From: Deltaproteobacteria bacterium
GTDB taxonomy: Bacteria; Myxococcota; JACPTQ01
Direction: 5' to 3'
DNA length: 35,262 bases
Assembly (NCBI GenBank): GCA_016192705.1
Contig: JACPTQ010000026.1
Location: 1-35,262 of the forward strand
The notes beneath the pieces were generated by a model, which saw nothing but the letters and a program-made list of their open reading frames with translations, did not search any database and was not told the origin of the DNA. The position numbers were made by a program, and so were the translations under genes. Shown here one piece after another: positions 12 through 35,262 of this stretch (the stretch's first letter is position 1; each line of letters begins with the position of its first letter).

Positions 12-490
12 GAGACTTGGGGGTCGATCGATCGTCGGCCGACACCCAGCGGGTGAACCCCTCGTACCGCCCCCAAGCCTAAAGAATACGTCCCCGGAAA
101 GCGGTCGGCAGGGATTTGGGTAGGGTCGGCAGGGGCGACGTGCAGGCACGCCTATTCTGCGAGCGGTCTGCAGGCAAGCCGGTGGCTTGCCTGTGCGAGC
201 AGAATGGCGAGGGCGACGGAACACCCGAGACCTTTGTGTGCTCGGAGTTGCAAATGCAGGTTGTGCTCGACCGAACTTGGTGTCGCGGCAGTGCCGCGCA
301 GCCCGCAGCCCCACCTTTGAGCAGGGTCTGCAGCGTGATATCGCGCGGGGTTACCGAGTTTTCGCATGCCTCTTACTCAGCGGCTCGATCGCGCGAGTGA
401 ATTCAGACCCGAGGACGTCGGCGCGCCGAAGCGGCACCCTGCCGAGCCTACGCACGGAAGAGTACTGGCTGCTTATCGGGGGATCGAGGT
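12..490 (+). repeat. Dispersed repeat copy A, interrupted by a hairpin element
   Basis: This stretch matches the reverse complement of 23236-23548 almost end to end. Both copies start with GAGACTTGGGGGTCGATCGA and end with a module running from TCAGACCC (403-410 here) to a GGGGATCGAGG-like end. Removing the insertion at about 154-318 leaves about 314 bp, the same as copy B. Both copies keep small internal hairpins, for example CACCC-AGY-GGGTG near 47-59, and an outer CTTGGGGG pairing with CCCCCAAG near 16-78. The reading frame is not kept between the copies: a frame open in B meets a stop here after about 23 codons. It is therefore probably not protein-coding. It could be a non-autonomous transposon or a structured intergenic repeat. 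Confidence 0.75.
154..318 (+). mobile_element. Hairpin element copy 1 (inserted in repeat A)
   Basis: The element opens with a 52-nt hairpin at 154-205. The outer arms are ATTCTGC and GCAGAAT. The inner helix is CAGGCAAGCC (171-180) with GGCTTGCCTG (184-193), closed by the triloop GGT. A conserved TCTGC (positions 14-18 of the hairpin) overlaps the bulge on the left side. The tail GGCGAGGGCGAC follows, and the element seems to end at CCCCACCTTT (309-318). Copy B of the surrounding repeat lacks this whole segment, which gives the boundaries. This copy has about 75 extra bases in its tail compared with the copy at 34603. Confidence 0.7.
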
Positions 491-13073: not shown

Positions 13074-14186
13074 ATGGATAACACAATTCGTTTTAGTTTA
13101 GCGGCGCTGCTCGCGATTCCAGCGTGTAGTGGGATGCAAAGCGATATGAACAGCGGCGAGATGGCGTACAACAGCTCGAATCTCGAATCGGGCAACTGTG
13201 GACAGGAAAACAACGCGTCGAACCCGTCTACGGGAGATGCCGACGAGGACAACGATTCCGCGACGAACGCGGACAGCGATGCCGACGACGATTCGGGTGA
13301 AGGCGGTGAAGACGCCACGCGATCGCAAGTCGCGACATCGAAGCACGTCGTTCTGCAAGTGCTTTGGGGGAACCTGATGATTGTGGGGAGCCCGTCGTCG
13401 TCAACGGCGTGGAACGGGAAGTTGAGCGTGGCCGGCGGCGCCAAGCTCAAACTGCTTCGCACGATTCGGTTCGAGGCGAACGACGCGATCACGAGCGAAA
13501 CCGAAACGGAGATCAATTGGACGTCGTCGACGCAACCCAAGTACGACGGGGTTCAGGTGCTCGTGGGGTTGCCCGAAAACGCGGCGAGCGCGAGCCTTAC
13601 GTTTGCGACGGCGCCTTACTCGGTGACGTATTCGGGTGAGGAGTTGATTCGGCTTCGCGCGGTAGCGACGGTTGGGACTGAGGGGAACGCGGTTTCGATT
13701 CGTGCGTTGCCGCTCGGGCGCTGCCAGCACGGGTTCATGCGCGGACATTGGACGCGCGTGGATGCGAAGGGCGGCGTGTTCCGTGGGCAGTGGATTCGCG
13801 CGAATGGAAAGGCGAAGGGGTTTGTCGAGGGGATTTGGGGCGTGCGCCTATCGGGTGAGCAGGTATTCTTTGGGAGAATCGTGTCGCGCGATGGCAAGAA
13901 TCGTGGTACGGTTTTCGGTCATTACGATGCCGGAATGTACCGTGGACACTGGGCGAGAAATGGCAAGGTGCGTGGCGTGATTCGCGGGCACGCTGTTGAC
14001 GCGAATGCGGACGGGCGCGGGTTTTTCGCGGGTGAATGGCTTCGGTTCTGCTCGGCGTACCGGCGGTGCGAGGCGAGCGTCGACGCGAGCGCCTCAGCGG
14101 CGGGTGCGATTGCCACGACTGGTAACGCGACGGACCTTTCCTTCGAGGCGTCGGGCGACGTGACCGTCTCGGCGACGTGCCAGTAA
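13074..14186 (+). CDS. Lipoprotein with Gly/Trp-rich repeats
   Basis: The 370-residue product has a lipobox (AIPAC, Cys18), then a very acidic, Asn/Asp/Ser-rich spacer (about 40-85). A beta-rich domain covers about 90-215. From about 220 to 330 a motif of roughly 20 residues repeats: G-x-x-R/V-G-x-W/Y, a short turn with G-K or G-G, then G again (RGHW, RGQW, EGIW, FGHY, RGHW, AGEW). Cys residues bracket this array. The regular Gly and aromatic spacing resembles MORN-like or other beta-hairpin repeats, but no known family is claimed. It should be a surface-anchored protein. GAGAGGTG lies just before the ATG. It runs divergently from top6B across about 200 bp. Confidence 0.75.
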   Translation: MDNTIRFSLAALLAIPACSGMQSDMNSGEMAYNSSNLESGNCGQENNASNPSTGDADEDNDSATNADSDADDDSGEGGEDATRSQVATSKHVVLQVLWGNLMIVGSPSSSTAWNGKLSVAGGAKLKLLRTIRFEANDAITSETETEINWTSSTQPKYDGVQVLVGLPENAASASLTFATAPYSVTYSGEELIRLRAVATVGTEGNAVSIRALPLGRCQHGFMRGHWTRVDAKGGVFRGQWIRANGKAKGFVEGIWGVRLSGEQVFFGRIVSRDGKNRGTVFGHYDAGMYRGHWARNGKVRGVIRGHAVDANADGRGFFAGEWLRFCSAYRRCEASVDASASAAGAIATTGNATDLSFEASGDVTVSATCQ

Positions 14187-14217
14187 TTTCGCCGCAGTGG
14201 TGGAAGACCCAGTGGGT

Positions 14218-14364
14218 ATTTCGCTTGCTGTCTGCGCGAATGCCAGTGGCATGAGCGCGCAAGCGAAATGGCGAGGGCGACCGAAGGGAAGCCCGAAGTC
14301 TACACCGGGTCCGCGCGGCGAAATTGGGGAGGGCGACGGAACGGAGCCCGAACCCCACCTTTTT
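14218..14364 (+). mobile_element. Hairpin element copy 2, with a partial second unit
   Basis: The 52-nt hairpin is at 14218-14269. The outer helix is a perfect 11 bp (ATTTCGCTTGC with GCAAGCGAAAT), then comes the bulge holding TCTG, and the inner helix closes on the triloop AGT in GCCAGTGGC. The tail GGCGAGGGCGACCGAAGGG follows. At about 14312 a second unit begins that keeps only the right arm (GCGCGGCGAAAT) and its own tail, ending CCCCACCTTTTT. The tail segment CCCGAAGTCTACACCGGGTC is shared with the copy near 35100. Confidence 0.7.
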
Positions 14365-34422: not shown

Positions 34423-34602
34423 GCCCTGGGCACTCCTTTGCCCACTACAGCGAGATTCTCATATTCGGGACCGATTCTCAACAACGAGGGAATGCGTGGT
34501 CGGATGCGGAAACGGAGACCGTTCGATTTGCGTTACGGCGCGAGGCACCCTTTCAGCCTCGAACGCCTCTCGGAAACCGTCGACGGCCGCATCGCCTACA
34601 AA

Positions 34603-34691
34603 TTTCGCGAGCAATCTGCGCGAAAGCCAGTGGCTTGAGCGTGCGAGCGAAATGGCGAGGGCGACCGAAGGGAGGCCGCAGCCTTCCTTTA
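34603..34691 (+). mobile_element. Hairpin element copy 3 (inserted in the IS91 relic)
   Basis: The hairpin covers 34602-34653 (52 nt). The outer arms are ATTTCGC and GCGAAAT, the bulge has TCTG, and the inner helix closes on GCC-AGT-GGC. The tail GGCGAGGGCGACCGAAGGGA ends in GCAGCCTTCCTTT. Leaving out 34603-34691 (89 bp) joins GRIAYK to LKKPRQ, as expected for an intact transposase. This is the shortest full copy. Confidence 0.75.
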
Positions 34692-35099
34692 TTGAAAAAA
34701 CCGCGCCAAGGAAAACGATTCCTCGTCATGACGCCCATTGCCTTCCTACGCCGTCTTGCCTTCCTTGTTCCACCACCGTTCTATCCCCTTCTTCGGTACC
34801 ACGGCGTCTTCGCCCCAAACTCGACTTGGCGAAGCCGCGTTGTCCGCGTGAACACCGGAATCATGGCGAGCCAAAGACAACTCGCGCGCTGTGCCGAACC
34901 GATATCGCCCATGCCTCCCCCACAGAGCGACATCAAGTTGATACTTGCGACCACGCTTCTCGCCGCCACGACTTCCCGGCTATCCCGCTTCGAATGGGCA
35001 ACGCTTCTCAAACGTATATACGATGTCGACGCCCTCAATTGTCCGCGCTGCGACGGCCGCCTCGAGTTTATTTCTGTCATCACTGACCCCATCACGACA

Positions 35100-35195
35100 T
35101 GCGACCCGGCGTAGAGTTCGGGCTCCGTTCCGTCGCCCTCCCCGTTTTCGTCGCGCAGACGCGCCACTGGCGCCTCTGCAGATCGCGACGAAAAC
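35100..35195 (-). mobile_element. Hairpin element copy 4 (inserted in the IS91 relic, opposite orientation)
   Basis: The hairpin is at 35144-35195 (52 nt) with a perfect 12-bp outer helix (GTTTTCGTCGCG with CGCGACGAAAAC) and an inner helix closing on GCC-AGT-GGC when read on the minus strand. The tail runs towards 35100 and ends in CCCGAACTCTACGCCGGGTC, the same tail type as copy 2. It separates ITDP from KLLEHIGLP and shifts the frame. The left edge is approximate. Confidence 0.7.
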
Positions 35196-35262
35196 TCCTC
35201 GAGCACATCGGCCTGCCTTCCGTGGCCCCCGTTCTCGCCCGCGCTCGCGACCCGGCTCCAAC

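Follow-up and report, generated by a model that had tools for sequence, protein, structure and literature searches.

The window analysed here, a stretch of 35,262 nt, ends in the C-terminal part of an IS91/Y2-type transposase relic (34504–35262, forward strand). The relic matches Pfam Y2_Tnp (PF04986) with E-values of 0.001–0.002, slightly short of the cut-off, and tblastn finds relatives of it in other genomes with 35–62% identity. It runs on into contig C31, which shares 141 identical nt with the window end. Two copies of a small structured element lie within it. Copy 1 (34602–34692, forward strand) is 91 nt long and adds a net 89 nt, with a junction ambiguity of 3 nt (ATT); the CM match covers 34599–34687 (87.9 bits, E 6e-20). 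It consists of two hairpins on the same strand. Hairpin 1 (34602–34653) has the outer stem ATTTCGC/GCGAAAT, a tandem G.A, an AATC bulge, an inner stem, and a CCAGTGG loop, while hairpin 2 (34654–34687) has the form GGC-GA-4bp-GA-CC-GAA-GG-GA-4bp-GCAGCC, a covarying variant of the usual CG-GAA-CG. Copy 2 (35105–35195, reverse strand) is likewise 91 nt long with a net gain of 89 nt (CM match 35110–35198, 96.3 bits, E 4e-22), and its 3′ end, ACGCCGGG, is the same as that of the nested subfamily described below.

A PF04986 profile search found no intact IS91/Y2 gene in this genome, the sole match being the below-cut-off relic in the window; therefore, the junctions were compared with relatives in other genomes. 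The spacing from GRIAYR to (M/L)KRP is 0 nt in 10 relative loci versus 89 nt in the window (GRIAYK/LKKP), and the equivalents of ‘ITDP’ and ‘LLEH’ are 15 nt apart in 23 relatives versus 104 nt in the window. Each copy adds exactly 89 nt to the relic, and both are frameshifting. An earlier note on this DNA had claimed that two elements in opposite orientation interrupt one IS91-type transposase gene and that their removal restores a continuous C-terminus. Both points are borne out by the relatives, which are contiguous at the two sites, and the opposite copies belong to one family. Its interval for the first insertion, 34603–34691, is the exact net span, apart from the 3-nt ambiguity. For the second, given as roughly 35100–35195, the place was right but the limits were not: the net span is 35100–35188 and the element occupies 35105–35195. 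The claim of mobility with near-exact empty sites is also well supported. Intact relatives that carry the hairpin segments would have spoken against insertion, and at least 33 relative junctions lack them. The hairpins might still be native parts of this IS91 lineage, either its own domains or its ends, given that this genome offers just a relic for comparison. However, with these hairpin-free junctions in relatives and identical sequence in unrelated genes and at tRNA ends, the probability of this reading is close to nil.

The inserted segments are members of one multi-copy repeat family with well over 100 copies. Base-by-base reading covered 2.44 Mb of the 5.21-Mb genome, including the window. 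CM R1 gave 117 matches (E<1e-4) in 1.32 Mb picked around known copies and 10 in a further 1.12 Mb, counts that include fragments as well as near-identical members of the longer repeats, groups A and B; a core 12-mer has 77 exact occurrences genome-wide. The element forms part of these longer repeats, many of which are located at the ends of contigs, as in C7, C20, C29, and C37, and likewise in C54, C63, C67, and C69. The repeats are divergent in places, about 325 nt apart, and since they so often end contigs, the assembly appears to break there. The open reading frames of C7 resemble host genes, and C7 was dropped as a candidate autonomous element. A group A copy is present in the window (154–236, forward strand), where hairpin 2 is broken by a different repeat ending in GGTGTCGCGGCAGTGCCGCG. 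Members of this second repeat family interrupt hairpin 2 in several copies of the element and also occur on their own, with 12 exact cores in 2.44 Mb; the sites include window 209–320 and L066, L069, L077, L090, L098, L100, L116, L117, and L122. At L106 (9367–9600), part of the 5′ hairpin of an element copy recurs behind that copy as a direct repeat.

Outside this genome, blastn found no member of the family in 57 relatives, and a CM search of 194 other genomes of the phylum gave none apart from one weak match that may be chance (G168, E 0.003). Rfam contained no credible match to the element, and blastn of plasmid and phage collections did not find it. Pattern searches in public genomes and in viruses returned 11 and 1 single matches, respectively, in unrelated organisms, which are probably chance. 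So far, the family has been seen solely in this genome, and the collections may lack very near genomes.

A fold with two helical domains was derived from an alignment of 34 copies. Hairpin 1 has the outer stem seen in copy 1, a bulge resembling AATC, an inner stem, the CCAGTGG loop and, often, a tandem G.A. Hairpin 2 follows the pattern GGG-GA-4 bp-GA-CG-GAA-CG-GA-4 bp-GAA-CCC, with alternative tips in some copies, e.g., CCTGTTTACAG. Compensatory substitutions preserve the fold: double compensatory changes occur in 23 of 29 pairs, and 97.1% of cells pair, versus 78.3% after shuffling and 33–45% when the partners are slid. G-U pairs (29) far outnumber A-C mismatches (3), which indicates selection on the element strand as written, i.e., on an RNA or on one DNA strand.

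The rule of insertion is best read where copies have entered other copies. In the window, a 92-nt copy (14218–14309, forward strand) has entered an outer copy within its hairpin-1 stem; the 5′ part (14186–14217, read by eye) and 3′ part (14310–14361) of the outer copy flank the nested one on the same strand. Seven nested insertions were found, at this site and at L065, L100, L077, L102, and L069, where nesting is three deep (A contains C, which contains D). At the nested junctions, the host runs to …GG(N), the insert starts from ATTT and extends over 91–92 nt, and the host resumes minus 2 nt. This loss was read against real uninterrupted sequences from other copies for C in A and D in C; in the remaining cases, it was deduced by comparison with related copies or from the symmetry of the stem. 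Because the nested copies define a unit of about 91 nt that replaces 2 nt, the copies in the IS91 relic are best placed at the 91-nt intervals given above. Indeed, 91 minus 2 equals the 89 nt observed at both sites, although an 89-nt element with zero loss fits these two sites equally well. At copy 2, the codons CGA AAA may be assigned either to the host (Arg-Lys, the family consensus) or to the element.

Of 66 distinct sites, 62 have T or A at target position −1; this set of sites excludes groups A and B and, through a first-four-base filter, a few copies with another start. While the 5′ end is ATTT, the 3′ ends are subfamily-specific, such as GGG or CTCTC. No consistent short target-site duplication was detected, the single exception being an 82-nt repeat at L079 (6560–6960, contig C44). 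There, a truncated tRNA-Arg gene contains the element in its anticodon loop (T33/T34). The insert is flanked by this direct repeat, with an intact tRNA-Arg downstream; thus, insertion is not always simple. Two further ideas about target choice were dropped. Target hairpins do not hold as a general rule, as the non-tRNA, non-nested empty sites are folded to much the same degree as a GC-matched background (mean percentile 0.44). Guide-target complementarity was considered when the 5′ arm of copy 2 seemed to stem from the host and to be able to pair with an internal ‘guide’; according to the nested copies, this arm is part of the element.

Many copies are associated with tRNA genes. Of the 66 distinct sites, twelve have the element start at the 3′ end of a same-strand tRNA gene, and one has it at the 5′ end of a tRNA-Trp gene and on the strand opposite to it. 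At two further tRNA ends, the copy present has been split by a nested one. With interrupted copies included, 14 of 30 sampled tRNA genes have an element at the 3′ end; in pieces chosen independently of copies, the figure is 4 of 8 tRNA genes with a copy. These copies begin directly after the discriminator base, and the trailers of uninterrupted tRNAs also often start with ATT. A cluster at L074 (8300–12000, contig C41) contains tRNA-Tyr, -Gly, -Thr, -Trp, and a second -Thr; no fewer than seven copies of the element lie between and behind these genes. At L080 (11344–11442, reverse strand), the trailer of a predicted tRNA-Sec resembles the element start and is apparently a truncated copy.

The copies at tRNA 3′ ends might themselves be functional, as trailers or processing signals, with the family spreading from them and the other copies being by-products. 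The same-strand position right after the discriminator base in nearly half of the sampled tRNA genes, the ATT start shared with uninterrupted trailers, and the G-U/A-C asymmetry, which indicates one strand, are in line with this idea. Yet, about half of the tRNA genes have no copy, and the structure is kept equally in copies far from tRNAs, so that such a function appears rather doubtful. The position of the 5′ end after the discriminator base suggests a possible release of the element as RNA during 3′ maturation of the tRNA. Extended to the whole family, this would describe an RNA mobile element launched from tRNAs: transcribed behind them, with its 5′ end set by tRNA 3′ maturation, the folded 91-nt RNA, or a copy of it, would be inserted elsewhere with the same 5′ end. 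Such a scheme is speculative and would, on present evidence, be an unlikely one.

Element copies are also found in protein genes. The five intact genes examined carry an in-frame copy (about 90 additional nt, about 30 residues): those for a polysaccharide flippase, prolyl-tRNA synthetase (ProS), an AMP-binding ligase, phosphatidylserine decarboxylase, and a PGI-domain protein, the last with the copy in antisense orientation. In all five, the reading frame is open through the copy and Pfam domains span or flank the insert. The prolyl-tRNA synthetase gene (L054, 5022–6875, reverse strand) contains one copy, seen as a 30-residue insert (EFRERSAGKPVAGPRERNGEPDGTEGATHTM) at the editing domain. A gene on contig C58 is, like the IS91 relic, interrupted twice by the element.

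To explain why one IS91-type gene was hit repeatedly, the earlier note had offered two possibilities: that the DNA of HUH transposases, often single-stranded, is a preferred target, or that decaying DNA simply tolerates insertions. A general preference is not what the sites indicate, since most of them are tRNA 3′ ends, loops of other copies, intact genes, and intergenic DNA. Tolerance fits, the two insertions in the window relic being frameshifting whereas those in the five intact genes are all in frame. The count of copies in relics versus elsewhere that the note had proposed gives at most 4 in relics, with the rest of more than 60 sites elsewhere, and any enrichment calculated from it is post hoc. 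All three detectable IS91 relics carry the element, namely those of the window (two copies), C47 (one copy, open in frame), and C45 (one degenerate copy at the relic’s edge). If copies were spread evenly over non-coding DNA, about 0.4–0.5 would be expected in the roughly 1.6 kb of relic DNA, a rough, after-the-fact estimate. Other IS families offer no comparison, as no relics of them were found in the genome with the Y1, DDE_Tnp_1, and rve profiles. The enrichment in IS91 DNA is therefore suggestive only.

IS91 insertion produces no target duplication. This feature, together with a copy in three of three detectable relics, would agree with IS91/HUH DNA as a preferred target or with an element moved by an IS91-type transposase. 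Against such a role stand the well over 60 distinct sites, of which at most four are in relics, the many sites at tRNA ends, in other copies, and in intact genes, the lack of an intact IS91 gene in the PF04986 search of the genome, and an enrichment figure that is post hoc and based on so little relic DNA. A special part for IS91 is thus improbable. Tolerance of dead DNA is enough to account for the relic copies, alongside a possible mild preference for IS91.

Collectively, the two segments in the relic are very probably separate insertions of one non-coding, two-domain mobile family of 90–92 nt, the folded strand of which would be recognised by a machinery supplied in trans, with the IS91 relic serving as dead DNA. 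The insertions themselves, the multi-copy family, the strand-specific fold, the fixed 5′ end and, in the nested cases, the 2-nt replacement are direct observations. In the proposed mechanism, a copy would enter, as the nested ones do, with a fixed ATTT 5′ end after T or A and would replace 2 target nt. The substrate recognised by the mobilising machinery would be a folded single strand, either RNA or one DNA strand, and the enzyme would presumably act in trans. The IS91 relic may have been interrupted twice mainly because dead DNA lets any insertion survive.

The search for a mobilising enzyme in this assembly, a MAG of 96.65% completeness, comprised the profiles for Y1, reverse transcriptase, DDE_Tnp_1, rve, and Y2. 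Y1_Tnp (PF01797; REP/RAYT type) had no match in the genome, while its controls were positive in 5 of 14 genomes, and neither the reverse transcriptase profile PF00078, used to look for a group II intron or another retro-element, nor DDE_Tnp_1 and rve had a match. The element could, in principle, be an ordinary DNA MITE left by a lost DDE transposon, being small, multi-copy, and non-coding, and having no coding partner. Its ends differ from those of a MITE, with ATTT at the 5′ end, subfamily-specific 3′ ends, and no terminal inverted repeats. Moreover, insertion leads to a 2-nt loss instead of a target duplication, save for the single 82-nt case, and DDE_Tnp_1 and rve had no match in the genome; a MITE origin is accordingly very unlikely.

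Compared with known systems, the family shares with MITEs of the TIR type a non-autonomous nature, short length, and high copy number. It does not belong to them, as it has no TIRs and no short TSD, and its nested junctions combine a 2-nt loss with unlike ends. REP elements are 20–40 bp long with a GTAG or CGTC tag at one end (PMC3733652). Like the present family, REP/RAYT elements are small structured repeats that sometimes lie within genes and are themselves insertion targets. In contrast, the unit here is 91 nt long and starts with ATTT, in a genome without a Y1_Tnp match, and membership is rejected on unit length, end tag, and the missing Y1_Tnp gene. Palindromic elements derived from IS200/IS605 have strand-specific hairpins and insert without target duplication. 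The present family resembles them in both respects, but there is no Y1 match in the genome and no fixed tetranucleotide target beyond T or A at −1.

The closest known kind appears to be the Rickettsia palindromic elements (RPE-1 and others), small dispersed palindromic repeats of a reported length of 100–150 bp that enter protein genes in frame (PMC3767692, PMC3733652). Their hosts include a tRNA synthetase and other housekeeping genes, and they are found in non-coding DNA too (PMC3767692, PMC3733652). The present family seems to work like RPE and the Wolbachia WPE, being small, dispersed, and palindromic, in frame in protein genes and also present in non-coding DNA; common descent and membership are not claimed. 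Most known examples of small palindromic elements that insert into genes without a frameshift come from Rickettsia and its relatives. Here, the filled and empty junctions of self-nested copies, the covariation, the strand signature, and the link to tRNA ends allow one to ask what the mobile molecule is, and an insert of about 30 residues in an essential tRNA synthetase raises the question of how such inserts affect host proteins. Unlike RPE, the family has a unit of about 91 nt, two domains with tandem G.A motifs, a fixed 2-nt target replacement, repeated self-nesting, and exact placement at tRNA 3′ ends, a link to mature tRNA ends that is unusual.
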